Source of the DNA: Rhizophagus irregularis
Taxonomy: Eukaryota; Glomeromycota; Glomeromycetes; Glomerales; Glomeraceae
Direction: 5' to 3'
Assembly (NCBI RefSeq): GCF_026210795.1
Contig: NC_089439.1
Span: 3,782,001 to 3,846,000 of the forward strand
DNA: 64,000 bases
Under the pieces are notes generated by a model. That model had not been told where the DNA came from. It searched no databases and saw nothing but the letters and a program-made list of their open reading frames with translations. Below, piece after piece: positions 1,111 to 64,000 of the stretch; position 1 is the first letter of the stretch, and each line of letters opens with the position of its first letter. The position numbers and the translations under genes are program-made.

Positions 1111-1129
1111 TAAAAATCGAATCACATGA

Positions 1130-2163: not shown

Positions 2164-2356
2164 GTTAAAATGAATACCCAAGAAGTTTCTTCTTTATAGG
2201 TGTAATCATGTGATAATTTCCAAACTGAAAAGTGAAATAATGAATATGATGTTTTTTTGTTTGGACAATGGCATATTCTGGTTCATGATTTGTCAATGTA
2301 CAGTATATATAGAAAAAGTTATATCATCGTGACACGTAACTATTACAAATCAAAAT

Positions 2357-2512
2357 ATGAGTAATGATAGCCAGATTAATTTTGCCGGGTTACATAGTTA
2401 CATATCAAATAACAATTCTCAGAAAGCTTTCAAAGAAGGTTATGATGAACTCATAGATAGTTCATCTGATTCGTCCGATGAAAGTGATTCTTCCGATGAA
2501 AGCGTTATATGA
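2357..2512 (+). CDS. Possible 51-residue acidic/Ser-rich protein
   Basis: An ATG in a good context (AAAATATGAG) opens 51 codons ending TGA. The C-terminal part is a run of Ser, Asp and Glu (SSSDSSDESDSSDES). It could be a tiny protein, the first exon of a longer gene, or chance. A TATA-like stretch (GTATATATAG) lies about 60 bp upstream. No family was recognised. Confidence 0.25.
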   Translation: MSNDSQINFAGLHSYISNNNSQKAFKEGYDELIDSSSDSSDESDSSDESVI

Positions 2513-2569
2513 AAAATATGCCGCCAGGCTCGGAGCTCTAGAATCTGACCTGCGGCCACAAGTCACCCG

Positions 2570-2860
2570 CGGTGTTGGCTTTGTTTGTGCGACAGAATAC
2601 ATGCCCACTTTTTTTTCACACCCGAACATCTAGTATAGAACTTATAACTGACTTTTTCCAAAATTGACCCAATTTGCTCTTTTTTTATTTTTCGTTTTTT
2701 TGCAATTATCTCAGCATCTAGTGATCCGACTTGGATAAACTTTTTTTTATTTGAAATCGGAGCAACTAGATACTGAGAAAATTGCAAAAAAAACTGATTT
2801 TAATTTTTTATAAAGGTTTCAATTAGACCTCAAAATCACCGATATGAGTTGATTTAGAGA
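2570..2860. repeat. Short inverted-repeat element
   Basis: The arms at about 2695-2721 and 2765-2791 are inverted copies (core TTGCAATTATCTCAGCATCT against AGATACTGAGAAAATTGCAA). They are surrounded by poly-T/A tracts. This looks like a small foldback or MITE-like repeat next to the outer end of the large inverted repeat. Confidence 0.4.
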
Positions 2861-3864
2861 TGTCCGGGGTCCTGTATATATATTAACCGTACCTCTGAAA
2901 CAGATATAACTACTATATGACAAACAATTTCAATTTCATAACTTTCTTTGTTTACTAATATAAGGTCAAAATTCAACACAAAGATTTATCATTTCTTTAT
3001 TATTTAAAGAAACTAAAAATTATATATAGCTTCAGTTATCGGTCATGTAGATGATAACAGGTGTATCTATTATAAAGTGATCATTAACATACATAGAACA
3101 TATACAATAAAACTTCTGTTGTTTTATTCATAAGCAAGCTTATTTTGGCATTTAAAAATTTTTCTAAGGCAACACTTTTTTTATTTAGAACTTTTTCAAT
3201 AAAGCTTGATTGATATACACAATGGGTATCTTGAAATTTCGGAGGTTTGGCCCCCCATTACGCGAATTTTACTATTAATAGAAACTTATAAAATAATTAG
3301 GGTATTGTTACAAGATATATTTAAATAATAATATCAACGACATCACAATAATATTAATAGATAAATTAATTTTTTTATATAAATATTTATCATCTTTTCT
3401 TTTTCCTTACATCCATTATTTTTCAAAAAATGTGTACACAAAAAATCGTTGCGTTTTTTTCACTTTTAACACCATTTATTTGGTTTACATGGTTAACATA
3501 TGTCGCAATTTTACCAATGTGCGCAATTCTAGGCCGGTTGGTCTGTATGGAGTGTTTATCACGCGCTTTGTCAACTTTTTTCAATTCTTCTGTCACCTTC
3601 TTAACTTTTTCAATTTCCAATTATCTAGGCTTTGCCCTTCGCTTTTTTCGCCATGATTATCGCTAACGTACTTGTACTATTCCGCTTAATAAAAAAAGGT
3701 GTGATATCGATAAATCATAAAATTATGTTATTATTTAACTGATCATACTGATAATCTTCAGTAGCAATCTACAATACAAGCACAGACGATGGGTAAGTAG
3801 TATATTGCGGTAATGTTATTTATTCAACAAAGGATTATTTTTCACTTTTTTATTGTTTTCTTAG

Positions 3865-4312
3865 ATTGTTCACACCTACTAGAGATGCGCTACAAGAAAT
3901 ATTTCCGCGAGCTTCTGGCAAACAAATCGCACGATATGAGAAAATAGTCAGTCAAGCAGATGAATTTGATCCATTCCTGATAATTTCTCCGAATTTAAAC
4001 TGGATAAACCAGTATGGAGAACAAGCTTATCACCTCGTGATGGATTGTTTCGCAACAGAAGGGCTTCAGAATGCCCGTAGGGATGAAAACTCACGATGCG
4101 TTTTCCATTTTCGAAACGGTCGTGAGCTTACTGACGTGCGTAATGCCATTCGCCAAAGACTCATTAATACTTTTTACATCCCTCCCGCCCTTCAAGCTTC
4201 TCATCCTCATGGCCAAGCTGTCCCCGTTGGATCCGCGTGGATATTGACAAAGGTGGGAGTACGAGAAAGTGATTTTTGGGAAGATGATACTTTTTTTCAT
4301 GTTCATCAATGA
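3865..4312 (+). CDS. Unrecognised conserved protein, left-arm copy
   Basis: An open frame of about 148 codons with protein-like composition, richer in G+C than its surroundings. It includes TRDALQEIFPRAS, NWINQYGEQAYHLVMD, RRDENSRCVFHFRNGREL and HPHGQAVPVGSAWILTKVG, and ends HVHQ. There is no ATG near its N-terminus. A consensus intron (gtaagtag at 3793, ttcttag ending at 3864) lies just upstream, so this is probably a downstream exon. The same splice signals occur in the right-arm copy. No family was recognised. Most differences between the two copies change the amino acid, so I see no clear sign of purifying selection, although both copies remain open. Confidence 0.5.
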
Positions 4313-4678
4313 TACTATTAGAAGTCTATTCAAGCGATTAGTCAGTTTGTTTAAATATTGCAGTTGAGATTGAACAATATTTGATGTCATTAAAATATTT
4401 CCAATGTTTTAAAAAATGATGCATGTACCATTCATTTATATAAAGGCTAAAAAATAAAAGCGAGGAATATTAGAAAACTTTTTAATACAATCCTTATGAT
4501 GTGATACGGAAAAATAATGGTCAATTTGGTCACAGGCGCAGTAAATTAAAAGATTTAGCCTGATATATCATTTCATTAACACTACTAGCACTAAAAAACA
4601 CTATTTTCGGTAACAATTGACAATACTGGAGTACGATCTAAATTTAAATCGTATTTACCATCTATCTCAATGCGTTTT

Positions 4679-4990
4679 TTAACCAAAACTCATCAGTGAA
4701 TGTAAGTTGGTAATATTGATCGAATGAATCAACCAAATTCTGAAAAATTGTCTTGCCCTCTCCTTTCGTTTTCGAAGAATAGCCTCTTTCATTTGATCTT
4801 GCTCAGGAATATGCTCTCCAATTTTATCGTTAACTAAGGCATTAAAGCCTAGTTTTATTAAAATGATCAAACTATAATATATACAGTATCCTTTTCCAAA
4901 TCGACAATAATTTTTATGCACTAAATATAACCATTTAGAAAATCGAGACTTCCCCGAGTACATGACGAAGTTTCTATACAATGAATACAT
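4679..4990 (-). pseudogene. Unrecognised Lys/Arg-rich coding remnant, left-arm copy
   Basis: Contains FNALVNDKIGEHIPEQDQMK and RKRKERARQFF, a basic amphipathic stretch, preceded by FSKWLYLVHKNYC. The right arm holds the same protein in a longer frame. The two copies agree in the core but diverge at their C-termini. The left version is shorter and probably decayed. Function unknown. Confidence 0.35.
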
Positions 4991-5149
4991 GTAGTCGTCG
5001 CTCCCGTTTCTATGCTAATAATATACATGATAATTTTTTCGAGCGATATGACTTTTTCTCTCAGGAGATTATCCGCACATGCATCTTGATGCTTAATGTA
5101 ATTTATCGCCTTGCTAGTTTCGAGCTGTAGTGACTATCCCATACAGTAA

Positions 5150-6250
5150 TCAGAATAACCGTCATCTTCCCGCTTTTGTTTTCTCTTGACAAACCGACTA
5201 CGTTTCGCTATGGTTTATCTTCAGCGACACAAATAAGGTTTCAGCTTCCTGGAACGAAACTATGATATGAGTATATTATTCTCGTTGCGAAGTCAACCCA
5301 TCCCGTGCTTTCATCACCAAATACTTCGTATTCAGACCTCATGATGAGTTCTTTCCCTGTAGTATCTCTTGTAATATTTATCGCAGTATAAAGAATTGTC
5401 ACGACGTATGATAAATGATGGTAGATATTGGAAGGTCATAATCCTTGACTGCACACCGCGAAAGCAACGTGCGAAGGTTTATGAGGGCTGACCGGACGGC
5501 TTTAAAGGGTTGCAAATAGATGACTGGGGCCCATCATACGAGAACCCACCCCAAGGTTATATCTTTGAAAGTGGAGCCTTTGTTAAGGTATCTGAATATA
5601 AATCATCAGGTTCAAATTCACTGTCTTGAAGATATAGTAGTTGGTCTTCTAAGTGCTCTGGAGTCACTCTTGCAAAGGATCTGATGGTCATAATAGAGAA
5701 TATAGATGGTGGTGAAGGATACCATGATATATGTAGTTTAGGACACAATTGACATAATTAATTTTTAAATTGAAAATTTTAAATTGAATTGAAAAATTGA
5801 ATAATATTGAATTGAAACTCATTGCATGAATTCCAAACTATTTCACATCCAAAGACCCATAATTTTTTAACGACTAAAATTTCCACTCAAACTCTTTTAT
5901 GAGGAGAACGGGCGCTTCGGCTTTTCTTTGAGGACCTAAACCTCTTTTGCAAGTTTCATGGCTGGTCCCAATTCCAACCCAGCTTGAATAAAATCATCCT
6001 TTCTCATATTGGCCATCGATTTTTTCGCTTGCGAAGTATTCCCAAGTCATCGTCAAGCTTGAGGTTCTGCTCTTTCAAAAATCGATAAGGGTCTCTGTAT
6101 CCCAGTTCTCAACCGTTGAGGTAGACAAAACGCTTTTTTAGGGATATTTGGCTCGGATAAAAAATGTGTTACGTTCGGAGTGATTGACCGAAAAAATATT
6201 TCTGGAAAAGCGGGCGTTAATATACGATTTTATGTCGCACAGACATCGCG
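5150..6250 (-). pseudogene. Decayed SAM/Crinkler-like gene, left-arm copy
   Basis: The reverse strand carries fragments of the multi-gene fungal family that joins a SAM-like helical domain to a Crinkler-type region. The left arm shows EYEVFGDESTGWVDFA, matching the EESTGRVDYAIK-like block I know from Rhizophagus proteins, and a KLDDDDLG-type SAM helix further in. It is broken in several places and treated here as a fossil. Confidence 0.45.
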
Positions 6251-6275
6251 TAATCACGTGACATTATCAACAAAA

Positions 6276-8639
6276 TGATAATAATTTGGAAATAATTGAA
6301 AAATATATTGATTTAGGAATTATTAAGAAATTTAAAGTTACAGATTATGATGATTTAGAATATATTTTATTTAATTTTGTAGCTCTAGGAAACTTGCCTT
6401 AGATTATTCAATTTACTTGACTCCTGCCAAATGTAACTCTTTGCGTAGCTTTATCGATTGTAAGACTATGAAGTTGTCCACAAGGAATAATAAGACAGTT
6501 GAGAGTAATATCGGACATCTTGCTTTCCTGAATGCATGGCCCTTAGTGAGAAATTATTCGCATGAAATCATAACTTCTTACATATACGCACCTTATTTTT
6601 TCGCGGGAAGGTTGGCTGAACTTCTACCAGTCCCCTCACGCTTTATATACTGGAGCTCGCTGAATAAAGACCGAACGCCGAAGATAAGGAAGATGTTTTA
6701 TCGTTATCATATGATGCCAAGAAACCTTTGAAGGTACATGAAATCGGGAATTTTGATTCCTTTTAGTTTAGCGATCTTTCTCGCAAGACTCAAAGTAGCT
6801 TTACGACTGAAGATCTCGGAAATTATGAAGTCCCGAGCCCTTCATAACATACAGTTTTAAGCTAATATTGACTTATAGGGTAGGTCCTGCAAGAAAGCAT
6901 TTCAATTCCTCTCGTTTGTATGAGAAAAAAGGTAGAGGTGGCAGTTAGCGTATTCGATTTTTTTCTGTCGCACAAGGCACAAGCACAGCCAACTCGCATA
7001 ACTCGTGGCTGCAAGTCTAATCAATATCTAGATCGGACCAATTGTTCTGCTAGAGATAGCTCAACGCTCTTTAAGCAATAGCATTTATGTGGCCAGATAA
7101 TTGTTTCAATCGGAACAAACAATATGTAAAATAACCAAACTGATTGTCTTCCATCTCGATTTACCTTCGGGATAGGAATTAGTTAATTTACTTTTTTAAA
7201 TGTATTGACCATACAATTTTAATAAAAAATTGTTAATTAAGCATCTTTATTGATAAAAAATATATGGTATAAATACAAAGATCTAGATATCCAGGGTTTT
7301 GATAAAATTATCAACTATTACATGATCAAAATGTTCAGCGTAATTCTTTCCTTATGATCCGATCAAGATCTGCTATCATATATTTCAGGGCATTGTTTTT
7401 GAAGGTGATATCCTTTATATCTGGAAGTACCCATCTATGATACAACTTATTGTGTGTTCCAGAAGTGAAGATACAGTATCCTTTGGTTTGTGCAAATTTG
7501 ATATATAATTCATAAGTAACAACAATGCTTAGATACCGCTATAAACACTGGTCTTTTATCTCTTTTGTCTATAATATCGGTCAATATGTTCATTTCCACA
7601 TGTAAATATAAGTGTTGTTCAATTTTTTCGTTGTCCAATTGTGGATTGTCGTTACATCTGTCCTATATATCTCCTTTAATTTTTCCAATGTATCATGGTC
7701 ATTCAAACACCTTTTCTTGAATTTTTTATACTCTCTGGTAACACGAACAAACTTTCGAATAACACTCTCCCATGAAAAAACGGGTTGACGAGGAACCTTA
7801 ACGGGCTTCAACATAACCACATCCATATTAGAAAATTGGTTTTTGTACTTTTCATTACAGGCGCATGCTGTGGTATCGACCAAAGCTGAATAGTAAGATC
7901 CTACCTTTTTGAGATGTCTTCGGAATTGCAGGATTATTTTTGACTATTTTATAATACCTACCACAAATGCTAGACATGGTGTAACCACGTACTTCAATTA
8001 CATCCGCAAATTCTGTGAAAGATAAAATATGTTGATTTTAGTTATATAATCCTTAAGTTTTTTAAGTCTAGATTCGAACTTAGTAGAACAGTATCTCATT
8101 ATAGTTCCGAATAAATCCCCCACATCACTTCTTAGAAATGCCGTATTCAACGGTATGGGAGCATCTTTAGATATATTTATAAAATATTCCTTGATTTTGT
8201 TGATATATTCAACATCGTGTTTGTCCAAATTCCGGTTTTAGAAATATAAACAACACATTTATCGGTACTACTTCTTGTTCTCTTGCAAATATTGTTGCTA
8301 GATGACAAGAAAAACTTTCGTCCACTTCTTCCTCTCTTTCTTTGCTAACGACAAACTTGATACTTCCGGCAACACACACTTTACTATACAATTCTTGCAT
8401 TTTTGCCCAACTTACAAAAAGGAATCAAATTCTTCCGGGAGTATTAAAAATTTCAATTTTAAAATAAAAAAAATATTAATAATAATTTTAAAAGTAATTT
8501 TTTTTTAGCTCCCGACAAGACGCTTATGCAACCGCAGGTCTTGATTTCCTCTTTTTTAATGAGGAACCTCGAGCGGACTATTACCATGTCGTCGTACGTC
8601 CCCTGACAGAATAGATTTCTGTATTAAATAAAGCATTGA
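6276..8639. other. Spacer between the inverted arms
   Basis: About 2.4 kb not shared between the arms. The right half holds a decayed minus-strand gene, listed separately. The left half (6276-7580) has one plus-strand open stretch near 6417-6731 with no convincing family. It also has a GC-richer patch at about 6950-7060 containing TCGCACAAGGCACAAGCACA. Confidence 0.6.
7590..8400 (-). pseudogene. Unrecognised decayed gene in the spacer
   Basis: Collinear minus-strand pieces read as one old gene. They are VCVAGSIKFVVSKEREEEVD near 8370, HDVEYINKIKEYFINISKDA near 8200, EFADVIEVRGYTMSSIC near 7990, then after a plausible 76 bp intron (gtaggt...ttcag) ALVDTTACACNEKYKNQF and CLNDHDTLEKLKEIY, stopping at 7590. 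The pieces change frame, so the gene looks broken. I do not recognise the family. The Cys pair in TTACACNEK may be structural. Confidence 0.4.
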
Positions 8640-8679
8640 TACTGTTCTTGATAATGTCACGTGGATTACGAAATATCTG

Positions 8680-9450
8680 TGCGACATAAAATCGTATATT
8701 AAGTATTAACGCCCGCTTTTCCAGAAATATTTTTTATTTGATCATTCCGAACGTAACACATTTTTTATCCGAGCCAAATATCTCTAAAAAAGCGCTAAGT
8801 CTGCTGAACACGACTCTTACTTGGTTGAGAACTGGGATACAGAGACCCTTATCGTTTTTTTGAAAGAGCAGAACCTCAAGCTCGACGACGATGATTTGGG
8901 AATACTTCGCAAGCAAAAAATCGATGGCCAAGTCTTTCTTGATATGAGAAATTCAAGCTGGAGTTGGAATTGGGATCAGCTATGAAACTTGCAAAGAGGT
9001 TCAGGCCCTCAAAGAAAAGCCGAAGCGCCCGTTCTCCTCATAAAAGAGCTTGAGTGGAAATTTTAGTCAGGTTAAAAAATTATGAATCTTTGGATGTGGA
9101 TAGTTTGAAATTCATGCAATGAGTACGTAGTGACAATTCTTTATACTGCGATAAATATTACAAGAGATTCTACAGGGAAAGAACTCACCATGAGGCCTGA
9201 AAACCCTGAATACGAAGTATTTGGTGATGAAAGCACTGGTTGACTTCGCAATCAAGGTAATGGATGTTTTTTCCGGAATTTTTTTCGAGAATATACTCAT
9301 CCCATACTTTCGTTCCAGGAAGCTGGAACCTTATTTGTGTCGCTGAAGATAAACCATAACGAAACGTAATCGGTTTGTCAAGAGAAAACGAAAGCGGGAA
9401 GATGGCGGTTATTCTGATTATTGTACGAGATAAGTCACTACAGCTCAAGA
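8680..9450 (+). pseudogene. Decayed SAM/Crinkler-like gene, right-arm copy
   Basis: Plus-strand fragments read WDTETLIVFLKEQNLKLDDD, the SAM-like segment, and further on TAINITRDSTGKELTMRPEN followed by EYEVFGDESTG, the block that precedes the effector region. This is the same family as the broken gene at 11.9-14.0 kb in its SAM-plus-Crinkler plan, though clearly a different member. It is broken in several places and treated as a fossil. Confidence 0.5.
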
Positions 9451-9483
9451 CTAGCAAGGCAGTAAATTACATTAAGCATTAAG

Positions 9484-10008
9484 ATGTTTTGGATAAAACT
9501 TCGCGGAATATCGAATGTTGCGAAGTGGCGTAAAAAAGGTGTTGGATACAATAGTGGATTATTAAGAAATAGGGCATGTGCGGATAATCTCTTGAGAGAA
9601 AAAATCATATCGCTCGAAAAAATTATCGTGTATATTATTAGCATAGAAACGGGAGCGACGATTACATGTATTCATTGTATAGAAACTTCGTCATGTACTC
9701 GGGGAAAGTCTCAATTTTCTAAATGCTTATATATAGTGCATAAAAATTATTGTCGAATTATTCTTTTGGAAAAAGATACTGTATATATTATGGTGATCGT
9801 TTTAATAAAACTAGGCTTTAATGCCTTAGTTAACGATAAAATTGGAGAGCATATTCCTGAACAAGATCAAATGAAAGAGGCTATTCTTCGAAAACGAAAG
9901 GAGAGGGCAAGACAATTTTTCAAAATTTTTTTTAGCGGTATTGGTAGTGCTAGTAGTGTTAATGAAATGATATATCAGGCTAAATCTTTTAATTTACTGC
10001 GCCTGTGA
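9484..10008 (+). CDS. Unrecognised protein, right-arm copy (174 codons)
   Basis: Open frame beginning ATGTTTTGGATAAAAC. It contains ADNLLREKIISLEKIIVYI, THCIE-like Cys residues (CIHCIETSSC), FSKCLYIVHKNYC, FNALVNDKIGEHIPEQDQMK and RKRKERARQFFK. The left arm has a shortened version on the opposite strand. A leucine/isoleucine-rich helix precedes the Cys cluster. No family recognised. It may be a chance-preserved frame in a decaying repeat. Confidence 0.35.
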   Translation: MFWIKLRGISNVAKWRKKGVGYNSGLLRNRACADNLLREKIISLEKIIVYIISIETGATITCIHCIETSSCTRGKSQFSKCLYIVHKNYCRIILLEKDTVYIMVIVLIKLGFNALVNDKIGEHIPEQDQMKEAILRKRKERARQFFKIFFSGIGSASSVNEMIYQAKSFNLLRL

Positions 10009-46353: not shown

Positions 46354-46600
46354 TAAATTCCATATCTTTTAAAGTTTATATGTAATAAAAATAAATAAAT
46401 TAAATTATAACAGCAAAAAAATCAGTATAAGTATTAAAAGCTAAGTCAAATACTGTTTACTCATGTTAACTAAAATTATTACAATTCACTTACCAGCAAC
46501 AGGTTCTATGACAGTGCAAATGTATTTTTTGAACAAATTTAATAATAAAAAATAGGTAAAAAAAGCACAAAATTAGTACTAAGTCATAATATATATATAT

Positions 46601-46738
46601 TATGATCTAGTTGCATTAAATTGTTATCTAGTTATGATTAAATTGTTATCTAGTTATGATTAAATTGTTATCTAGTTATGATTAAATTGTTATCTAGTTA
46701 TAATTAAATTGTTATCTGGTTATGATTAAATTGTTACC
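46601..46738. repeat. 22 bp tandem repeat, about six units
   Basis: Unit TTGTTATCTAGTTATGATTA plus AA, nearly perfect in the middle copies and degenerate at both ends. It sits in an A/T-rich gene-poor stretch. Confidence 0.9.
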
Positions 46739-48428
46739 TATTTGCTTGTTTTCATATTTTATGGTTTTTTTATTGCTTTATTGCTATCCACTTAATTTTA
46801 TTGCTCTATAGCTTTTTTATTACTTTATAGATATTTACTTGATTTTATTACTTTGTTCTCTTTTTATTTCCTTCTAGCTAACTACTTATTTTTATTACTC
46901 TACGGTTTTTTTGTAACCAAATTGCTTGGCCAATATTGATTGCTAAAATCATGTTGAAATTATTTAGGATTTGGATGGTATGTATATAACTATATTTCTT
47001 TAACTTAAATCTATAATCTAAGTTTACTAATATAATTAACTATATCTCTATAATTTAAATATACCAATATAATCTAATTATACTTCTATAACCTAAGTAT
47101 ACCAATATAATCTAACCATATTTCTATAATTTAGGTAAACTGGTTTAATATAATTATATTAGATCAGATAGTTTTAATCAAATTCACTATAAATTTTAAT
47201 ATAAAACTGATTATATTTTGAAGTTTTTAATATTAATTAGCAGAATAATTTCTTTGGAGTTAACTAATAATTTATATATAGTTATTATAGTATTAATATA
47301 TTCTACTTTTTTTAAAAAATTATTTTATATATTGCTTTATTTTTGTTATTATATTAAAAATAAAAAGTAAAGATATAACAATTTATACAGAATACTGTAA
47401 AAGTAATAATTATACAAAAAATTTTTTATTATATAAATAATTTTTTTTATTAAATAATTTGATTGTTTTTATATTTTATATATTAATAATTATTTATATT
47501 TTTAAAAAGTTTTTTTTTGGATTTTTAAATTTAAAATTTAAATAATATTTTTTATTATTTTTGAAATATTATTTATTATTTTTATTTAAAAATACTTTTT
47601 TAAACCTAAAATTTATTTTTTAAATATTGGAGTAATTGGATTTCAAAAATTATAAGTTAAAAGTAAAAATTATTTTATTATTATAGAAATATTACTAATA
47701 TTTTTTTTTAGTCTTTTGAAAATAATTAAAGAATAATAAGGAATTATTTATTATAAAAAAAAATATTAGTAAAATAGTAGTAAAATATTATTTAATAGAA
47801 AATCTGAAATCTTAAATAAAATTTGCTTCTATGATTGGTAAAGATGATATCACAATTAGACTTTACTAATTACAATTTATAATCTGTAACTTGCAAAAAC
47901 AGTTAAGCTTTCAACTTTAATGATTAAATTTTAACTTAGTAAATATATTGTACTTTATTTGTTAAAAAAAATCAATTTACAAAATAAAAAAAAAGCCTCA
48001 AATTTGAAATTTAGAATTTGAAAGTCATGTGATTTATATTACTCTTTACTAATACATGTATGATAAAAAATAAATGTAAATCAATGTATTTATTTTTTTT
48101 TTTTGTCGCTGCAGCACATTTATTAGTTTATTAAAATAAAATTCACGTCAATACATATATGAATAATACAATATAAATTTAAACTAATTTGATAATTAAT
48201 AAACCACTCGTCATCATATAAAAGGACCTCACGTATGTACTGTCAGGTGAATTTGGGACTATGAGAGTAAGTCCAATGTGAAATTATCCTTTCTTAGAGG
48301 GGATGCCTCTTCTCTCAATCTCAGTCTTAAGAAAATTCAGCAAAACCTACTATGATATAAATGGAAAAAAAAAGGATTTTAAAACAAAAATTCAGGATAA
48401 AAAAAAGGGTTAATAAAATGTAGATTAG
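46739..48428. other. AT-rich region with degenerate short repeats
   Basis: 46740-46920 repeats TTTTTATTGCTTTATTGCTA-like words. 46985-47160 has three or four imperfect units of about 50 bp built on CTATAATCTAAGTATACCAATATAATC. 47.2-48.0 kb is almost pure A/T. A slightly richer patch at 48200-48340 (CACGTATGTACTGTCAGGTG) has no recognised gene. Confidence 0.55.
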
Positions 48429-53745: not shown

Positions 53746-53784
53746 AAAGCATGCTACATTACACATTTACTGGTACTACGTATA

Positions 53785-53882
53785 GTAGATTATGTCCTCA
53801 GTTTTAATTGTCTGTACTGGTCCATACTATATATATATAGTATGGACCAGTACGGACAATTAAAACTGAGGACATAATCTAC
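53785..53882. repeat. 98 bp near-perfect palindrome
   Basis: Two 49 bp arms with a single mismatch and no spacer, centred on ACTATATATATATAGT. The arms run GTAGATTATGTCCTCAGTTT...GGTCCATACT. It could form a cruciform or a long RNA hairpin. It may be the smallest foldback MITE or a product of an inverted duplication. Confidence 0.95.
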
Positions 53883-54116
53883 TTGCTCTAGACTATAATG
53901 TACTTACTAGACTAATAACTGTTCCATGTCACCTGTTTTCCTATTAGATTTTCTTTTTATTAGCTGTTTTTTTATTACATTTTTCACTGATTTTATCGTT
54001 CCAATTGTGATAAGTCCTAATCTAGATTATGGGGCATATGTAGACTACATTTTGTACCAAACTGTCCCTGTTTTATATTGGTGTTATTACCTTTCTACAT
54101 CTGTTTGGTGGTTAGT

Positions 54117-54310
54117 TTTGATATCGAGAGGATGCTGATATTTTAGATTGCCAGGCCTTTACATCCTGAATTTGGGTATTGAAAGGGGTGCTGATTCTTT
54201 GGATGCCAAGACCTTTGGTGACTGATTTGGGCATTGAGAGAGTTGCCGATATTTTGGTTGCTAAGGTCTTGCATCTCTAATTTTGATATCGAAGGCAATG
54301 GGCACTTCCG
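54117..54310. repeat. Degenerate 55-59 bp tandem repeat, three units
   Basis: Each unit has GCTGATATTTTAGATTGCCA-like, CCAAGACCTTTG-like and ATTTGGGTATTGAAAG-like words in order. No coding sense. Confidence 0.6.
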
Positions 54311-54439
54311 AAGTCCAATCATGGTTTAAACTGGGGTCGAGGCAGTGTGTATGCTATTTTTTCTGAACGTCCCTAATGTCTCTAGTAAAAGTAAAGTTAT
54401 AGGAAAAAATATCGAATCCATCCTGTATGTATGCCGTCA

Positions 54440-54870
54440 CCAAGAAAATTTGTTAGTGACACTCTTAGTGACGCTCTTAGTGACACCCTTGTATGCTTTT
54501 TTTTGGAGTTTGGAGATGCTCGGTTGTCTTCCTTTATATTTGTCACTATGTCACTAAGAGTCACTAAGAAAAAGTAAAGTTCTAGGGAAAAATCAATTTT
54601 TTTCTATGGTATATCTATCAGTATGGTATATCTATCGGTATGCTATATATATGTTATATATATGCTATATTTTTACTATACCCATAGATAAAAAAATAAA
54701 AAGTAAAGAAGTTTGATTTTTTTTAGTGACTCTTAGTGACATGGTGACACCCATCTAGAAACCGTCTGAGAGTTCTAAAAATCTGAAATAGCTATAAAGT
54801 TTGTTACCAAAAGCGTTACCAAGGGCGTCACCAAGATTTTCTCAGTGACAGTGACATCTTTTTTCTAGTG
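54440..54870. repeat. Cluster of TTAGTGAC/GTCACTAAG words
   Basis: CTTAGTGAC occurs several times in both orientations (AGTGACACTCTTAGTGACGC, GTCACTAAGAGTCACTAAG, ACCAAGGGCGTCACCAAG). It lies just outside the first gene of the polymerase element and may be its subterminal region. This is inference only. Confidence 0.5.
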
Positions 54871-54929
54871 ACAAACTGTATTATTTTTGTTTACCTCTAA
54901 ATTACCTACCAATATCTCCGCCGAAGCTA

Positions 54930-55145
54930 TCTTAGCCTGCTTTTTCTGATGGTATTGTTCCTTTTTACGGTGCTTTCTAGCATGTAGATCGCAAAACTCA
55001 TATCCAGAATAAGTTCGTTTACCACATTCAATGCAAGGTATATATAAGGGAGAATTCCGATGTATTTGGCACCCTTTTGGATGGAAGCACCCCGATTACA
55101 AACTTCTCCGGTCCTAAGAATATATGGACATCGATAAAATGTCAT
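54930..55145 (-). pseudogene. Small Cys/His zinc-binding-type protein, broken
   Basis: Minus-strand sequence rich in paired Cys and His: [14 protein letters not shown] at the start, then CIECGKRTYSGYEFCDLHAR and a basic tail KHRKKEQYHQKKQAK. The spacing suggests one or two zinc-binding knuckles. I recall similar small proteins repeated in Rhizophagus. It is divergently placed from the polymerase gene, about 130 bp away. Broken, and described only as part of the fossil. Confidence 0.45.
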
Positions 55146-55270
55146 TTTTTATAACTATGAATAGTTCGATTATGTATCGATTTATATATTTCGGAATTAA
55201 TTTTCATTTTGAACTTTTTTCTCCCGAAGTATATACTTTCTCTCGAACTGTATATTTGTTATATAATATT

Positions 55271-58200
55271 ATGACCGAACATTCCGAGCTTTCAGAGTTC
55301 CTCTCCTCTGACGCCATTGCCCTTTTTCGCCCAGATGCTGAAAAAGATAAAACATCAGGTCAGGTAATCAGATATGGAAGTGAGAATTACTTGTCAGGCC
55401 TCCCAACTCGTGATGAATTTGTTGCGAGAAATGATGGGAGCTCGACTTCAACTCTCAATGACGAAATAGCGAACCATCGAGGTATTCCATTCATGCCGGT
55501 CGACATAGAAGAAGCTAAAGAATATTTTAATCAAATTCCTCATTATATTCTTCGCCTCTATGGGTATCTCGTCAATGGCCAGAAAGCAGTTGTCACCATT
55601 ACCGGTATCAAGGTATTTTTTGATATTCGTGTTCCCAGCAATACAAGTATCCCTAAATTCTGGTCTAAAGTGAAGGGCATCCTTGCTACTGGGAAAAACA
55701 ACGAGGGAAGACCGTAAACATGAATCTAATCCAGATGGAATGTATAAAGGCATATCCTATTCGTGGATACCATACAGAAAAAAAGCCATATCTTCGCATT
55801 GTCACACCTAATAAAGATCTAAGGTTCACCGCTCTCGATATTATCTCAAGTTACAATTCAAAGGTTGATCCCGAATGTAAAATAGAGACAGCTTCAGACG
55901 ATACAGGCACATATTATCGTAAAGTTGCGAGAGAGTATAGAATACCTCTTTCCGGGTGGGAATTAATAAGTGATTATAGATATAATTTCAGTGCACCTTA
56001 TTATGTGAAATCCCAACATTGTCCACATGCATTTTATGTCCACATTGAAAACTTTCGTCCTATAGACAATTTTGAACCATTTTACAAAATATACCCATCT
56101 TCTCTCTTTACCCATGATCGAGCATTAGTCCTAACATGGGATATAGAAACATACGACTTGTGTGGGTCAGGAAACTTCCCAGAAGCTAAAAATGACACAT
56201 CTCAAGTTTTTGCGATCTGTATGACCCTGCATTGGAAAGATGATCCAATCCCCTTAGAGCGGATATGTTTAGTTGATGTAGAAACGGAACCAGACCCGCG
56301 CTGGATTACGATTATATGCGGAAACCAGACTAATATAATAAAGGCGTTCGCTTTATGTTGGAAATCTTTTGCCCCAGACATCGAACTTGGATTTAATGAT
56401 TCAGGATACGATTGGCCTTTCATTGTGGAAAAGGCCACCAAATTAAATGTTCTCGAGTGGATGGTCCAGTGAATGTCGGCAATCCCGCATAAGAAAGCTG
56501 ATGCTGAATCTATCCTCATTTGGAATTATTTTGGCGGAAAAGGGAAGCCACTAACTAATGGTTTCTTCCGAAGGGACCAGTACGTAAAGAAAGAGGACAG
56601 AGGTATCAAAAAAGCGTTAGGACGAGAATCTATCAATATCAAAATCAATCCCTCTTTGACTTTCGAATCCTCCTTTCTTAAACTTCCGGGGTGTGTACTG
56701 ATCGATGTTCGCGCAAGTTTTATGCAACTTCACCCCCGCTCTGAGAAAACATCACTAAAATACTTCTTAGAAAAATATGGTCTCGATGGTAAAGCCGATA
56801 TGCCCATGAGCAAATTATGGAAGTATTATTCAGAAGCGAAAGACAGGGCTTCCGACTCTTCCAAAAAACATATGCATGAAATCGTAAATTATTGTGTTAT
56901 AGATGCTTTACGTTGTCAGAAGCTCATAATCAAATCTAATGTTATAAATGATTACAAAGAGGTGGCCTCAATCGCTCATATATCATTATTCGACTCACAT
57001 TATTATGCTATAGGAACGAAAGTATCCAATCTCTTAGGCACTGAAGCTTGGGCGCAGGACATTCTATACACCACGAAAATTTCCAATCAGAAAGCATCTG
57101 GGAAGTTTCCAGGAGCGTATGTGTTCCCGCCAGAAAAGGGTCTTGAAAATAAGCGCCCTGTCACTGGTTTAGACTTTAGATCCTTGTATCCTAGCATAAT
57201 TATGACTTACAACCTCTCACCCGAGAAGATGGTCTCAACACTTTCGGAAGTAGATAAGTTAAAGAGAGAGAACAAAGTGCTTTACAGTATCGAGTTCAAG
57301 TATGGCGGTAAACCTGTGTGAGCCTGGACCATACGGCATGGAAATAAATCTGATCAGGAAGGTTTATTTACAAAAATATTGAAAAATCTGCTCAATATAC
57401 GGAATGAATTAAAGGCCCAACTTAAAGTTCTCAGAAAGAAAAAGGAATATATGGGGAAAGTTAAAAGTAAAATGGATTCAACTGGCGGATCTTTCCTGGT
57501 AGTGGATGCAATCAAAGATGTTCTATCCTCTGTAAAAAATACTGAGAGGCACGCAGAGATGACCAAGATCCTAAGTCCCTTTATTGTTCCGGAGGAGCGC
57601 TCTGATGGAGCTGATTTATCATATGATGATTTTATGAAAGAATATAGTTCTATTTGTTTTGAATACAATTCTTTAAATTCGAAGCAGAAGGCGATTAAAT
57701 TATATATGAATTCGTTCTATGGTGTGACTGCCCAAAGTGATTCCCTGTTCTATACACTAGCACTTGCTGGAGGTGTTACTTTAGCTGGGCGAGAGAATAT
57801 CAAACTCGTCGCAGAATTCGTGAAAAAGAAGGGCTTTGGGATAAAATACGGGGATACTGATTCCCTATATCTCACTTGCCCAGATTCTTGTTATGAGAAA
57901 TGTGATCTGGCCTATAATGGCGGAAAAGGCACAATTTCGAAACTAGAGTACTGGACTGAAATGGTCACAATTACTATGGGCGTAATGGAGAAATTGCGTA
58001 ATGAAGTAAACAGTTTTCTTAGGCTAAAAACCAGATCGGGTTATCTCGAAATGGCTTATGAAGAAATGCTATTCCCAGTAGTCTTCACTGGGAAGAAAAA
58101 ATATTTCGGCACCAAGCATGAAGATGCAGTAAATTTCAGTCTGGAGGACCCTTTCATAAGAGGAATTGATACTGTAAAACAAGGCAAATCCCAGCTTTTC

Positions 58201-59298
58201 AAAACCATAGGGGATCGGATTATGAATGAAGTTAGGGATATCAACAACGAGCATCCTCTCCATAAAATTGTTGAGGACGTTCTTAGGAACGCTATAATTA
58301 ATACTGAGCAATGGAATTTCGAACAGTTTATAGAGACTGATGCATGGAAACCTGATGTAAATAATATTAGCATCCAACGTTTTATAGGAAGAATGAGAGG
58401 AAAATATGATAGTAAAATTCCGATACCAGGTGAGCGCTTTAGTTATGTAGTAACCCATCCCGATACTACCTTTGATTTACATGGTAGAAAGTTAAAACCA
58501 ACTAAAGGCGAAAAAATGGAATTCGCCGATGTAGCTAAGGAATTGGGAAAGGAACTAGATTTATACCATTATTTCGAAAAAACTATTATTGGCCTCTGTG
58601 CCCGATTTATCATGTATGACAAGAAGTATGAGCCAGAACCCTCAAGTCGAATCATGCGAATCAAAGACCCGGATGAGAAATATAAGCAAATTGATGACTA
58701 CGCTCAAAACAAGGCCAAGTTATGGCTTGAGGGATTCGTAAAAGAAAATATCATAGTCAATGGTGTTACTTCCAAGATGATGGAATCTCGTGGGATTGCT
58801 TATAAGCGTGCTTACAGAACTGCGGTCAAAAAGGCACAAGAAATGTTATATCATAAGATAGGGTACTTATACGAAATATTTCATGGCGAATGGCTTAGCT
58901 ACGAGATTTTTATGGGAAGTAATCCTATTGAGATATTATAGGAGAGATTCATGAAATGCGCTAGGAAACTTACAAAAGATAAAAACCTCTCGGTGGATGG
59001 CGAAATGAAGGAAAAAATATGCTCTGATTTTGCTCGATATCCTAGTGAGCTTGCAAAATGTATTGAAGGGTATAATTTATTCTTTCACAAATTGGTCTAT
59101 CATATGCGTTATAAAGAGCATATATCCATACCAGAAAAAATTGGCCCAGTCTCGTCTATGCAAAAAAATGAGATAATTACTGACTTACCAGCCTTACCTC
59201 ACATATCAGAAATTGAGGCGCTAGATGACATTACTAATTTATGGTATTTCCATCTTGAAGGTGTGGTCGAGCCGGAGGTGTTAAAGCAAAGCATTTAA
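55271..59298 (+). pseudogene. Family B DNA polymerase, viral/Pol-delta-like, broken
   Basis: The stretch spans about 1,300 codons of coding-like sequence. Exonuclease motifs: WDIETYD near 56140 (Exo I), [10 protein letters not shown] near 56392 (Exo II), YCVIDA near 56892 (Exo III). Polymerase motifs: [10 protein letters not shown] at 57172 (motif A), KLYMNSFYG near 57697 (motif B), YGDTDSLYL at 57847 (motif C). The large size, full 3'-5' exonuclease set and DxxSLYPS form look closer to viral or delta-type polymerases than to protein-primed Polinton enzymes. No TPR-type insertion was recognised, but this was not aligned. It would copy the element's DNA if intact. The gene is broken in about four or five places. 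Confidence 0.85.
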
Positions 59299-59586
59299 AT
59301 GAATTATATAGATAGTACTCTTAGCCGAAATTCCCACAATCTGCTAAGAGAACTTATACAATATTATTTATATTTTTTTTTCTCGTGCAATAATACTGGC
59401 TAACTTCAATTCCTATAATCGATCTTCTGACCCTGAACATGAGAGATCCATCCCTCCGATCATACAGCCCGACCTCAGAAATGTCTAGAGATGATCATTA
59501 GTATTTTAATTTGGCAAAACTTCATTAACAATGTTAACGATCAGCCGAAAAATCCACATATTTTAAAGATAAGCTTTATTGGTATA

Positions 59587-59925
59587 ATGGCCGAACTACG
59601 TGACCAAGTTTTCCAGTACATAGGCTTCGAACCCAACAAAATCCATTTCCCGATCACAGAAGATGATAGATGGTTATTTCGCAAAATAATAGCGGATCAG
59701 GAAGGGATGAGAGATATTGTAATGGATGACTATCAATATTTACTACAACACGGTCATAATGGTAAGGGAGGTAACCAGATCCATATTGGATGGTTGTTTG
59801 CATGTACACTGGCCCAAGCTAAAAAGATATTAATAAATCCGCCCAAAGATTTATCAAAAAAAGTATTAGCCTACATCCAAAGAAGATTCAGAGAAGTCCC
59901 GCTTGTGCCAGTACTTATACGGTAG
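59587..59925 (+). CDS. Small element protein, 112 aa, unrecognised
   Basis: The likely start is MAELRDQVFQYIGFEPNKIH. The frame continues through EDDRWLFRKIIADQEGMRDI, GHNGKGGNQIHIGWLFACTL and a C-terminal helix KKVLAYIQRRFREVPLVPVL. An upstream in-frame extension to 59491 is possible but less protein-like. The helical, Trp-bearing composition could suit a small structural or DNA-binding protein. It follows the polymerase on the same strand. No family recognised. Confidence 0.5.
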   Translation: MAELRDQVFQYIGFEPNKIHFPITEDDRWLFRKIIADQEGMRDIVMDDYQYLLQHGHNGKGGNQIHIGWLFACTLAQAKKILINPPKDLSKKVLAYIQRRFREVPLVPVLIR

Positions 59926-60156
59926 TCGATTAGGTATTGAGATAATAAATATCCGGCCTATTTATATATTTTTTGTGTGTGAAGTATCGGTCATTTTTTT
60001 CATTCATACCCTATGGATTCCACCATTTCCTGACCACGAGCCATATAACCACAATCAGTAGTAAGGCAAGCATGGAATATGTTATCATGGGCGACATTAG
60101 AGAACTCGCAACGACAGGAATAGCCGATGCTAGAGGTATTTCTTGGGACAATGGTA

Positions 60157-60918
60157 CTACTTCTGCGCCACCTGATTCCAAAGGAATCCCTCACTCGAAA
60201 TTATTTGGGATGAAGTATTTTTCTTTAACGCTAACTGGTCCTTGAAGGCCCTATTTTCCTCCCTTAATTTTGATCGCGCTGAATACAAAGCATCTATTTC
60301 CCGTTTGAATATATTATTTGACGACTCTATCCCCTTTTCCATACATTCTATTGTATATTCTTTCGAATTACGGTCCTCCTTCGCATGTTCCAATTCAAGC
60401 CTGAGAGATTCTATTTCAGATGAGCTTATTTGGGCCGGCTTCCCTCCCATTGCATCCAAATCATGATATGTGCGCTCTAGATCTATGTCTTCCAACTTAC
60501 CTTCCAATTCACGTATTTTAGTTTTAAGAGAAAGAATCTGGACCTTATCAGCGGACGAAACTTTCTGGGCCAAAGTTGCCCCTCTCTTTAGTGTTTTAAT
60601 ATTTGATTTGAGCAATTTGATTTCGGCAGTATATTTGGCTTCAAGCTTACGTTGACTTTCGGAATGAGACTTCTGTTCAGAAATGAGTTGGGATCTAACT
60701 TTAGTACTGGATGCATTTAACTGGCTAATCTTATTTCCAATATCCTCCTCTCGCTCCGAATACTCTGAATTTTTAGCCAACAACTTTTCACAAAGATCAT
60801 TAATTTCGGCTTTAGAACTAAGAGTGGCATACAATTTTTTTTCGAGCTCTTGCTCATACGCACTACCAAGCCGATGACCTTTATTATTAATATCTTTCAA
60901 GGTATACACATTGGTCAT
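60157..60918 (-). CDS. Coiled-coil element protein, 253 aa
   Basis: Starts MTNVYTLKDINNKGHRLG at an ATG. Nearly the whole chain from about residue 20 to 230 is charged heptad-like helix (LEKKLYATLSSKAEINDLCE, LSLKTKIRELEGKLEDIDLE, IESLRLELEHAKEDRNS), typical of a long coiled coil, with a short C-terminal tail. It may be an oligomerising scaffold or tether. The plus strand opposite 60060-60245 also has a plausible open frame, so the C-terminal boundary is unsure. Only about 190 bp separate its start from the HTH gene on the other strand. Confidence 0.55.
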   Translation of the reverse strand: MTNVYTLKDINNKGHRLGSAYEQELEKKLYATLSSKAEINDLCEKLLAKNSEYSEREEDIGNKISQLNASSTKVRSQLISEQKSHSESQRKLEAKYTAEIKLLKSNIKTLKRGATLAQKVSSADKVQILSLKTKIRELEGKLEDIDLERTYHDLDAMGGKPAQISSSEIESLRLELEHAKEDRNSKEYTIECMEKGIESSNNIFKREIDALYSARSKLREENRAFKDQLALKKNTSSQIISSEGFLWNQVAQK

Positions 60919-60984
60919 AGCCTTTTTTTCGGCTTAGTTGCTAGTATATTAAAAAAACATGCGATTGAAAATTTTTTACTTGGC

Positions 60985-61100
60985 AAATTTTTTAGACCGA
61001 ATATATCGAATACACCGAATACACCGAATCTACCAAAAATATATCGATAATACCGAACAGAAATCAAACGAATACCGAAAAAATATCGAAAATATACCGG
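60985..61100. repeat. Short AATACCGA repeats
   Basis: About ten degenerate copies of AATACACCGA/AATACCGAA in the shared start region of the divergent coiled-coil and HTH genes. This is a microsatellite or a regulatory repeat. Confidence 0.6.
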
Positions 61101-61107
61101 TAATTTT

Positions 61108-61593
61108 TTGAAAGATTTTTTTTTGTCTATTTGTAAAAAATGCTTCGGTATTGCGACCCCCCTATCTGCTGAAGATATCCAGGATATTATTAAAGCTAAA
61201 AATTCAACGAAGCGGGCATCAGAAGTCATGGCTAACAAATACAAAATATCAACACGGCGGGTGTATCAAATTTGGAGAGGAGCTCACCCACCAATAGACC
61301 CTAAAGATATAAAACTACTGTCAGAAGAACCTGGTTCGTATCAGCAAGCAGAACTTGTGGAATGCAATGTTATTTCTGGGAGTAAGGTAAAAAAGAATGG
61401 AGGAAAGAAACCCAAGTCCAAATCCGTTAGAATCTCTGAACCATCTATTACCCAGAATCAGCCAACGGCTACAAGCCCAGAGGGTTCTGAAGGTTTAAAT
61501 ATTAGCAGAGAGGATCTGAATGCATTTTATGAAAAAGAAGCTAAGAGAGATGAAAAAAATAAAGCAGAGGTGAATAGACGTCTAGCCGTGTAG
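61108..61593 (+). CDS. Helix-turn-helix element protein
   Basis: Contains SAEDIQDIIKAKNSTKRASE followed by VMANKYKISTRRVYQIWRG, a clear homeodomain/resolvase-like HTH with the recognition helix STRRVYQIWRG. A Lys/Ser-rich linker (KVKKNGGKKPKSKSVRIS) and an acidic-basic helix (REDLNAFYEKEAKRDEKNKA) follow. There is no good ATG in the first 35 codons, so the start is uncertain. An upstream exon or the ATG at about 61228 are options. It probably binds the element's DNA as a regulator or recombination accessory. Confidence 0.5.
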   Translation: MKDFFLSICKKCFGIATPLSAEDIQDIIKAKNSTKRASEVMANKYKISTRRVYQIWRGAHPPIDPKDIKLLSEEPGSYQQAELVECNVISGSKVKKNGGKKPKSKSVRISEPSITQNQPTATSPEGSEGLNISREDLNAFYEKEAKRDEKNKAEVNRRLAV

Positions 61594-61706
61594 AAGATAT
61601 TTCCCATTTAGTTTATCATAGCGTACTAATAATTTCTCACACAATTCGTTAAGATCCTCTTTAGACTTAAGAGCGCTAAATAACATTTTTTCAAGCTCCT
61701 CATAAC

Positions 61707-62546
61707 TCACTTTTTTTTTAATGCGCCATCCTCACTTAAGTCCTGTGAAATGCAGTCCGGGATCATGGAATCGTCACATTCAGGAGTAATGTTCGCGCAA
61801 TTCACCTCGAGCTTGTTCTTAACCTTATGCATATTAATTGGGATAAAAAATTCCTTACCATTACACTCTAGTCTCAATTCCCGCTTTGATGCAAGTAAAT
61901 CATAATTATATTTATCAAGAAGTGTGTTGGGTAAAATTAGCATCGGCTTAGGATACTTAATTACAGCAAAATCAGCATATATAGTACATCCGGGAGCAAA
62001 ATTTACTGGGACATTTCGGACAGTACCAAGAGATTCTATAGGAATGGTAGCGATGCCTCTAAGGTCATGTTTTTCTTTTGTATCGATTTTCAGCTTTGAT
62101 TGTTCAGATATATCTTCAGACATGATCGGAAAATTAGCACCAGGATCAACTGTACCTGCCAGAATCACTAGACGCTTAATTTTACATTTAACGGTGACAA
62201 CATCTGTGGCGGGTTCTTTTTTCCGAATAAAATTTATCTCCATAGGTCCATCCAAAATATCCTCTTCATCTGAATCTTGAGCTGAGGCAGGTACACACTT
62301 TTTAGCCTGCTGAATTATGTACAGAAGATAATTCTCAAATTCGATCTGAATGATTTTTCGAATAGTTTCTTCTAAAGACACATGCTTACCATGACTATCT
62401 TTATCTGATGAAGCATTATGGGTGGAAGACAAATTATTGTCTTGCTTTACCTTACAAAGCTCAGATTTACTAGAGACTTTAGACTTTGAGGATTTATCGG
62501 GATATCCACGTTGCCCAGCGGGTTCTAAAGGGACCGCGTAATTCAC
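61707..62546 (-). CDS. Retropepsin-like aspartic protease
   Basis: About 280 codons. The N-terminal half is Ser/Lys-rich with a helix (EETIRKIIQIEFENYLLYII). The protease fold shows VKCKIKRLVILAGTVDPGAN, where DPG stands in place of the DTG/DSG of the active-site turn. Next come the flap-like LRGIATIPIESLGTVRNVPV and the second-half strand ADFAVIKYPKPMLILPNTLL. Retropepsins dimerise and process Gag-type polyproteins. The DPG is a non-standard variant, and I cannot say whether it is active. It directly adjoins the Gag-like frame, slightly overlapping it, a layout in which LTR elements often use ribosomal frameshifting. Confidence 0.6.
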   Translation of the reverse strand: MNYAVPLEPAGQRGYPDKSSKSKVSSKSELCKVKQDNNLSSTHNASSDKDSHGKHVSLEETIRKIIQIEFENYLLYIIQQAKKCVPASAQDSDEEDILDGPMEINFIRKKEPATDVVTVKCKIKRLVILAGTVDPGANFPIMSEDISEQSKLKIDTKEKHDLRGIATIPIESLGTVRNVPVNFAPGCTIYADFAVIKYPKPMLILPNTLLDKYNYDLLASKRELRLECNGKEFFIPINMHKVKNKLEVNCANITPECDDSMIPDCISQDLSEDGALKKK

Positions 62547-64000
62547 TTTTTTTTTCCATGAGTTATGTAAACATTCATATCGCGTTTTCCGGGGTCTGAA
62601 CCGGCTGACGAATTATCAGAGTTATAATCATTGTCCTCAGATTTTGATGTATCATCATCAGAAAAAATGGGATCAGACTGTTCATCTACTGTAGCCATAT
62701 GAACTCGACTACTTCTGGATTTGGAATCTTTAGTGAGTTTATCCAATAAGGTTTCGATTTTTCCTAATATTTTTTCTAATCCTCCAAAAGGTAAGGACTC
62801 CGAGCGTTGACGCTGAGATGTTTTGGCACCTCTGGTATTATTTCTATCAAATTTGGCTAAGTGGGCTTCAATTCGTTCTAATCTTTTTTCCAATCCTCCA
62901 TTATTATAGTCTGAGGATTCTGAATACTGATACTGAGCTGATTTGGTATCTTCTCTTATGAGTTTGGTGAGTTTGGCTAAATTAATTTCGATTACTCCTA
63001 ATCTTTTTTCCAATTCTTGGTTAATATGACTATCAAGGATTGAAGCATTATTCGAATTAATTACATTTTCAGGTAGTTGTAAGCGTTGGGCAAGTTTAGA
63101 ATGCACCTGCATTGATTCCGCTAACTGTGCTTCCAAAGAAGCTATTTTGGAATTTAACTTTTCAAAAATAGCGGAGGCTTCATTATTCTGGAGGTGTACT
63201 TGAGCCGGTTGTGCTAGTTGGGCCTGTAGAGAAGCTATTTGGGAATTTAACTTTTCAATCTCAGCTGAAGAATTATTCTGATAATTTTGGTTTCCATTTA
63301 AATTGGAAGCACGCTCCAGCCACATGTCTTTTAGATTTGTAAAAAATGCATTAATACCAGCAGGAGCGACAGCTCGCATCCATGTATAAAGATTACCTGA
63401 TAAGTGGTTCTTAAGAAATCCTATAGTTTATGCATCATTATCTGCTACACTTAATAATAAAGGTCGGATTCTTTTTTCATAAGTATCTGGCGAGTCTGTG
63501 GGTAGAAATTTTTCTTGAGTTAATCTTTGAAGTGCCGACTGCTGACTACCTACTGTTTCTCGTTGATAATGTGATCTCATCCAAGCACGTAAAGTAGCTG
63601 GAGAATTAATATTAGCATTTCCATTATATGGATCTTGGGCAGGAACTGGTAAATATTTTCCTCCCATCTGAGCTTTAAAAATATCACATTTGACAACATC
63701 ATCGAAATCTCCAGCATTTGCATTTTCAAGAACAGTCATATGTCCTTGTGCAAATGATATTGATTGAATAAGTCTATCTAAATAATCATCAGGAGGTTCT
63801 TGGCCTATATAGGGCTTAGTTTTTGCAAGAACCGGTGCAATCATAGTTAATACTGGTAAACGTCTAGCATCTGCCATATTTCCTAATGGGTTATTCTGAA
63901 GCGCCAAAATTTGTCCCTGCAAATTTAAAATATTCTGGTTTCTTTGCCTAATCACTAGCTGGAAAACAAACTTTTCACGTAGCAATCCACCAATGCGGGT
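62543..64000 (-). pseudogene. Gag-like protein with coiled-coil repeats, part
   Basis: Fossil part running to the window edge, where the frame is still open. The first portion holds KPYIGQEPPDDYLDRLIQSI, SPATLRAWMRSHYQRE and a DSPDTYEKRIRPLLL segment, resembling retrotransposon Gag helices. The next portion begins AVAPAGINAFFTNLKDMWLE. It carries two copies of an IEKLNSQIASLQAQLAQ-type heptad block and three of a GLEKRLERIEAHLAK-type block, then a Ser/Asp-rich tail. No CCHC knuckle was seen in the window. About one break. The assignment to Gag rests on helix content and on the neighbouring protease. Confidence 0.5.

Follow-up and report, generated by a model that had tools for sequence, protein, structure and literature searches.

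The stretch analysed here, hereafter the window, comprises 64,000 nucleotides of Rhizophagus irregularis (NC_089439.1, positions 3,782,001 to 3,846,000, or C11:3782001-3846000 in the numbering used below for its own genome of 146.7 Mb in 32 contigs, which was the genome searched), and holds at its right end a block of genes in which a family B DNA polymerase (PolB) lies next to a retropepsin and a Gag-like gene. A first-pass annotation had described a GC-richer block with a PolB, a retropepsin, a Gag-like gene, a Cys/His protein, a coiled-coil protein and a helix-turn-helix (HTH) protein; all of these genes are indeed present, the HTH label for 61108-61593 being the weak point of a gene that is otherwise real, and GC content is 33-42% from 54.0 kb onward vs 20-31% across 52.0-54.0 kb. 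The block is likewise real, its limits being other than first drawn: similarity to other copies starts near 54.30 kb and runs past the window edge to C11:3853091 (71.09 kb in window numbering), where this copy is broken off by a high-copy repeat. Its features within the window are as follows, and all counts of matches in the own genome, here and below, are lower bounds.

54301..55303, no strand: inner part of the left terminal inverted repeat (inverted pairs around at least 12 PolB groups)
54895..55095, minus strand, limits approximate: small Cys/His gene within the terminal repeat, read from the sequence; the same frame lies in the right repeat of the C1 copy (L115:4238-4525)
55274..59298, plus strand: family B DNA polymerase, probably asfarvirus-type, with an exonuclease domain, broken here (Pfam; PDB 8ywg matches)
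59491..59925, plus strand: small conserved open reading frame (ORF) 3' of PolB (at least 32 own-genome matches)
60014..60918, minus strand: gene for a coiled-coil protein that probably has a membrane anchor at its C-terminus (at least 47 own-genome matches)
61108..61593, plus strand: small gene, possible HTH (at least 26 own-genome matches; weak match to PHROG 836, 0.0024, the best obtained)
61707..62546, minus strand: predicted retropepsin (AlphaFold2, AF2, model and Foldseek)
62543..63427, minus strand: coiled-coil C-terminal part of the putative Gag (some relatives with a CCHC knuckle)
63428..64000, minus strand: capsid-like part of the putative Gag, interrupted by a stop in this copy (relative P0242 modelled with AF2 and compared with the PDB; continued in L096; at least 46 own-genome matches)

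The polymerase of the window copy is broken by one frame change near 55.72 kb and by in-frame stops at 56470, 57319 and 58939, and its three pieces, when scanned with Pfam, gave exo1 (4.2e-14) and DNA_pol_B (1.7e-14 and 5.2e-22), that is, the combination of exo1 and DNA_pol_B (PF00136) and not DNA_pol_B_2. The same three pieces match PDB entry 8ywg in order (chain residues 100-316, 341-562 and 618-1009, at E values of 2.7e-28, 6.8e-56 and 3e-93, respectively), the next unrelated structure for the longest piece following only at 4e-9; the entry is listed as a DNA polymerase, and we take it to be that of African swine fever virus. The matches point to a PolB of the asfarvirus type and not to a protein-primed one. 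Among the best 120 of 268 relatives of this PolB, all those that carry a species name are from Glomeromycotina. A search of viral_contigs with a PolB piece returned no relatives, and one with alignment A1 returned 46 loci with short PolB stretches only.

For the retropepsin, the Pfam match of the ORF is weak (0.009, below the cut-off), and it is the AF2 model of the 61707-62546 product, matched by Foldseek to DDI1 (4.4e-7) and also to HIV protease, that identifies it as a predicted retropepsin; P0311, a protein listed for R. irregularis DAOM 181602=197198, equals it over 272 residues. No Gag family appeared above the cut-off in a Pfam scan of the Gag-like proteins, and the AF2 model of the relative P0242, compared with the PDB, resembles retroelement capsids, so that, as judged by folds, both a Gag and a retropepsin of the kind seen in long terminal repeat (LTR) elements seem to be present. 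No relatives of the protease were found in viral_contigs, and the one match there to Gag (L001) looked tailed-phage-like by eye and was set aside as chance. In the coiled-coil gene, the main frame (60157-60918, minus strand) and the anchor (60014-60190) stand in different frames in the window copy, and P0123 matches the anchor frame. Minus-strand runs of nine A followed by GTGA were also seen at 62547-62555, between the Gag end and the protease start, and at 61711-61719, between the protease end and the coiled-coil-like start; the next gene being in the -1 frame, these junctions are possible sites of programmed frameshifting or splice donors.

The adjoining 10 kb (L096, C11:3846001-3856000) contain the rest of Gag, whose N-terminal part extends over C11:3846001-3846942, followed by an integrase-like gene and an A32 packaging ATPase. 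The ATPase scores above the cut-off (Pox_A32, 8e-10) and thus supplies the A32/FtsK-type packaging ATPase that is one of the Polinton hallmarks; the integrase-like gene, with an endonuclease-like C-terminus (PHROG HNH, 4.4e-13), may be the RVE-type integrase that is another, an assignment that is weak by sequence. The C1 copy has, at its right end, a primase-like gene followed by a D5-type helicase frame (DUF5906, 2.1e-20). PolB and the primase-like gene begin with nearly identical residues (window 55274 and L115:3126-4274), since the start of each is covered by the inverted repeat, and in the Gigaspora protein P0049 a primase-like start is joined to PolB; the boundary L096:1-942 / 993-2660 is tabled alongside this shared start. 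The middle of the C1 copy (L112, C1:3068001-3078000) shows kinase-like, NB-ARC-like and coiled-coil frames, which may be passengers or later insertions. The first-pass annotation could not include the integrase and the ATPase, which lie past the window, nor the primase/helicase end; that PolB is related to asfarviruses and that the element as a whole is Polinton-like are likewise additions to it.

Whether these genes belong together can be judged by how they recur. When the per-protein genome matches lying less than 10 kb apart on one contig were taken as one group, at least 34 PolB groups were obtained, 30 of which contain one or more of the other seven element genes, and in all 30 the order and strands are alike when the element's own rows are used: PolB (plus), small ORF (plus), coiled-coil gene (minus), possible HTH gene (plus), protease (minus), Gag (minus), integrase (plus) and ATPase (plus). 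The rows so used were 20 of 103 for the far protease, 22 of 29 for the far Gag, 27 of 32 for the ORF, 46 of 150 for the ATPase and 55 of 81 for the integrase. Among the at least 34 groups, the ORF was found in 23, the coiled-coil gene in 29, the HTH gene in 18, the close protease in 27, the close Gag in 11, the integrase in 24 and the ATPase in 23. A recount taking every row of every search gave a consistent order in 27 of 30 groups at the 10-kb gap and in 29 of 30 at a gap of 6 kb; the exceptions are C7 and C9, with the ATPase and far protease of a cousin element that adjoins the copy on C7 and is nested within the one on C9 (a far protease row is present in 2 of the 34 PolB groups), and C17, with a distant integrase match (38%) on the other side of PolB. 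In other Glomeromycotina, compared at the protein level, and in R. irregularis itself, gene models even fuse neighbours: PolB with the ORF in P0097 of R. irregularis and P0057 of Gigaspora rosea, Gag with the protease in many listed proteins, the protease through the coiled-coil gene to the antisense of the ORF in P0177, while the last exon of P0246 corresponds to the start of PolB read in antisense. The proposal that PolB, retropepsin and Gag-like gene form one unit is thereby borne out, and the boundary between 59.3 and 61.7 kb that would have split them was not seen.

The block could still be thought to be two chance neighbours, a decayed LTR retrotransposon contributing Gag and protease beside a viral PolB relic, since both folds are of the retroelement type and reverse transcriptase (RT) is abundant in this genome (1007 candidates, the best 150 of which were scored, all over the cut-off). 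Because one gene order recurs at many loci across the genome, however, the block is not a chance assembly, and we consider this explanation ruled out for all practical purposes; the gene following the protease, moreover, is the coiled-coil one and not RT, and 13 of the 120 protease proteins listed continue into it. No reverse TRANSCRIPTASE was found at E<0.001 in a Pfam scan of 55 frames of at least 90 amino acids each, taken from the window copy (as far as 71.1 kb) and from the nested cousin described below, and none of the 150 scored RT matches falls, as compared by eye, within the 34 PolB groups, in line with the original description of a PolB with Gag and retropepsin but without RT. RNase H, a jelly-roll capsid and an adenovirus-type protease were equally absent from the same 55 frames at that threshold, and the latter two from the scanned frames of L112 and L115, with C1:3078001-3083000 (~5 kb) lying outside the scan and with the proviso that divergent jelly rolls escape Pfam.

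The ends of the element tell a similar story. DNA of window positions 54300-55300 forms inverted pairs around at least 12 PolB groups (the best 40 of 58 candidate pairs having been scored), seven of the 12 pairs spanning 34.4-37.1 kb and the other five 43-90 kb, with the C9 bracket being over-long because of the nested element. This is the recurrence in one order inside one pair of ends that had been set as the test of the unit. The ends of the C1 copy are identical at 153 of 154 positions over the compared stretch, and its right end is 92.7% identical to window 54639-55303, the inverted DNA reaching as far as window position 55303, which is just within the opening codons of PolB. The element consequently has long terminal inverted repeats, as Polintons do, and not the direct terminal repeats of LTR elements. 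Inside the window no repeats bounding the block were found, nor was an inverted repeat between the window left and the L096 right, as the window copy is cut at 71.09 kb; the outer left repeat, seen in other copies, is missing from it too. None of the window frames starting left of 55 kb matched any of the 314 proteins compared at E<0.001, and the small Cys/His gene had no match in a Pfam scan. Other repeats in this part of the window include a 209-base imperfect palindrome within the terminal repeat (54541-54749), with GTGAC-rich short repeats around it, a near-perfect, MITE-like 100-base palindrome directly left of the block (53784-53883) and, further off, a tandem array with a 22-base unit (46593-46765).

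Asfarvirus-like sequences of R. irregularis have been published before, namely a 1.5-Mb insertion in strain 4401 and 15-33 PolB copies per genome (PMC10640383). Zhao et al. read these PolB-only copies as traces of giant viruses there, and the copies treated here could accordingly be endogenous pieces of giant asfarvirus genomes remaining from repeated infections, their GC content of 36-39% being like the 36.6% of the 1.5-Mb region (PMC10640383). The recurrent inverted-repeat brackets of 34-37 kb and the single gene order, however, better fit a discrete mobile element, and the giant-virus-fragment explanation seems highly improbable to us; most of the scattered asfarvirus-like PolB copies of R. 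irregularis would then belong to the 34-37 kb element. Somewhat less improbable, though still doubtful, is a satellite or virophage-like parasite of a fungal asfarvirus-like giant virus, one having acquired its PolB from that virus and depending on it during part of its cycle, for which both the closeness of PolB to an asfarvirus-type structure and the very existence of the insertion in strain 4401 (PMC10640383) could be invoked, whereas the unit has its own PolB and helicase and the helper relation is hypothetical.

Selection acts on both halves of the unit. Between eight copies per gene, the median dN/dS, taken over those pairs whose dS was 0.1 or more, was 0.13 for PolB (23 of 28 pairs), 0.27 for the protease (20 pairs), 0.24 for Gag (21), 0.36 for the coiled-coil gene (27) and 0.25 for the ORF (7), many pairs of smaller dS showing higher values. 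Purifying selection is seen on PolB, Gag and protease, and the low ratios imply that the replication module and the Gag/protease module were both kept by selection during the spread of the element, with single copies decaying later. The modules also recombine, as the window Gag has a dS of 0.00 relative to the copy at C8:3490469 (L064, L065), whereas the window protease, compared at the same two loci (C8:3491950; L056, L060), has a dS of 0.79.

These values bear on the possibility that the element is a Polinton-like transposon whose Gag and retropepsin work inside the cell, e.g., as a nucleoprotein or a nuclear-import shell, with no DNA-filled particle being made. No particle is known, copies of the element are often broken, and PMC7805220 mentions the view that Polintons of this kind live on as transposons after losing their capsid gene; against this stand the A32 packaging ATPase accompanying 23 of the at least 34 PolB groups and the purifying selection on Gag and protease, and we hold this explanation to be unlikely, although less so than the two invoking giant viruses.

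Related elements help to place the 34-37 kb one. The C9 copy carries, nested in its Gag gene, a 14.4-kb Maverick-type element (C9:1290702-1305080; L098:~702-10000 and L099:1-5080) bounded by inverted repeats of 465 bp (98%) and flanked by a target duplication of 4 bp, AAGC, whereas the one typical of Polintons/Mavericks is 5-6 bp long. It encodes a D5-type helicase (DUF5906, 1.8e-17), an A32 ATPase just above the cut-off (3.6e-5) and DNA_pol_B_2 (PF03175, 2.1e-7), so that the protein-primed PolB expected of a Polinton is found in this cousin and not in the 34-37 kb element. A cousin-related locus, L110, has an aspartic protease (5.5e-9), an RVE integrase with a chromodomain (2.4e-8) and a DUF5679 zinc ribbon; a far, cousin-type protease row lies within 5 kb of at least 68 of 150 ATPase rows, and cousin Gag-like frames are placed by position alone. 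A third set of loci (e.g., C21:3109666-3111641 and C2:47179-49154) has Gag ~45% and protease ~34% identical, some of them next to an integrase of ~38% identity, with no ATPase row nearby.

Set against known systems, the element shares with Polintons/Mavericks an RVE-type integrase (weakly assigned, as stated), an A32-type packaging ATPase, its own PolB and long terminal inverted repeats, and the likeness extends to the cousins, with their protein-primed PolB domain, A32 and 465-bp repeats in one case and a retro-type protease with RVE integrase in the other. It differs in that its PolB appears to be asfarvirus-type instead of protein-primed, in that Gag and retropepsin seem to take the place of the jelly-roll capsid and adenovirus-type protease, and in its length of 34-37 kb. 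To Asfarviridae and the 1.5-Mb region of strain 4401 it is tied by the type of PolB, the D5-type helicase, the A32-type ATPase and raised GC (PMC10640383), but it is ~36 kb long, bounded by terminal inverted repeats and present in many copies, and it has an integrase, a Gag and a retropepsin. Genes for a capsid, an RNA polymerase or capping were not seen in the element stretches read, which leave out C1:3078001-3083000 (~5 kb) in the C1 copy. LTR retrotransposons and retroviruses of the Ty1, Ty3 and Copia type have in common with it the capsid-like Gag fold, the CCHC knuckle (in some relatives), the retropepsin and the RVE-type integrase, whereas the element has inverted and not direct repeats, a DNA polymerase, a packaging ATPase and genes on both strands, and neither RT nor RNase H was found in it. 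Ginger elements, to our knowledge, move by cut-and-paste and have neither a PolB nor a packaging ATPase or a capsid; they resemble it as DNA transposons with a Gypsy-type integrase (PMC2836005). The element is outside the definition of Polintons by its polymerase and, as far as seen, its capsid, outside that of LTR elements by RT and the kind of terminal repeats, and far smaller than an asfarvirus.

Taken together, the block is quite probably the left 16.8 kb of a decayed, Polinton-like integrating DNA element of about 34-37 kb in which a retro-type Gag/retropepsin pair replaces the capsid module, and the earlier idea of a DNA-replicating element with retro-type structural genes gains support from the recurrent order and the inverted ends. 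Gene content, conserved order, inverted ends, the fold matches of protease and Gag and purifying selection are observed; what the proteins do together can be put forward only conditionally. The element DNA would be copied by PolB with the helicase-primase, Gag would assemble a shell that the retropepsin matures, the A32 ATPase would load dsDNA into that shell, and the integrase would insert the element DNA again, Gag thus presumably being the shell that packages the element's own DNA.

Several points weigh against such an element. No particle, expression or packaged DNA has been shown; a close Gag accompanies just 11 of the at least 34 PolB groups, and three of 30 groups break the order when all rows are counted. 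Foldseek alone gave no significant match for the Gag model (best 0.18), and helical models may reach middling Z-scores by accident in a fold comparison. The rve match of the integrase-like gene (0.0097) is below the curated cut-off, its identity to the cousin integrase that passes the cut-off is 22% (E 0.001), and the primase-like gene, having no match in Pfam, was assigned by eye. One scored RT match (C3:1684729) falls inside the over-long 82.5-kb bracket on C3, and the DNA analysed for the 34-37 kb group stops short of the outermost ends and of any target duplication.

Going one step further, it is about an even chance that these elements represent a separate lineage of integrating dsDNA viruses of Glomeromycotina, with a Gag particle matured by the retropepsin and filled by A32, in which the whole virion module was exchanged with retroelements. 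Such a lineage would imply a second exchange as well, an asfarvirus-type PolB and a D5-type helicase having replaced the protein-primed PolB, and we would put the two together at the same even odds. If true, it would explain why R. irregularis Polintons had no detectable capsid gene, those of G. intraradices (R. irregularis) being named as lacking one in PMC7805220. Elements that expanded recently in R. irregularis include Mavericks (PMC8647823), a curated repeat library adds Maverick families (PMC11075540), and the Polinton ATPase groups with that of viruses having jelly-roll shells (PMC4028283); in the open literature, as far as it was available and with the original Maverick papers outside its scope, no report pairing Gag with a Maverick/Polinton was found.

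For R. irregularis itself, these results suggest that many of its scattered PolB genes stem from a mobile element rather than from repeated giant-virus infections. More broadly, viruses are sorted into major groups by capsid type, and the known Gag shells come from reverse-transcribing elements; a swap of the shell module across this divide would be shown by an element with Gag and retropepsin that has kept the A32 motor, the integrase and the DNA polymerase, suggesting that shell modules are exchangeable between retroelements and DNA viruses. A Gag-bearing element would also be a concrete answer to the apparent lack of a capsid gene in R. irregularis Polintons, as described in PMC7805220.
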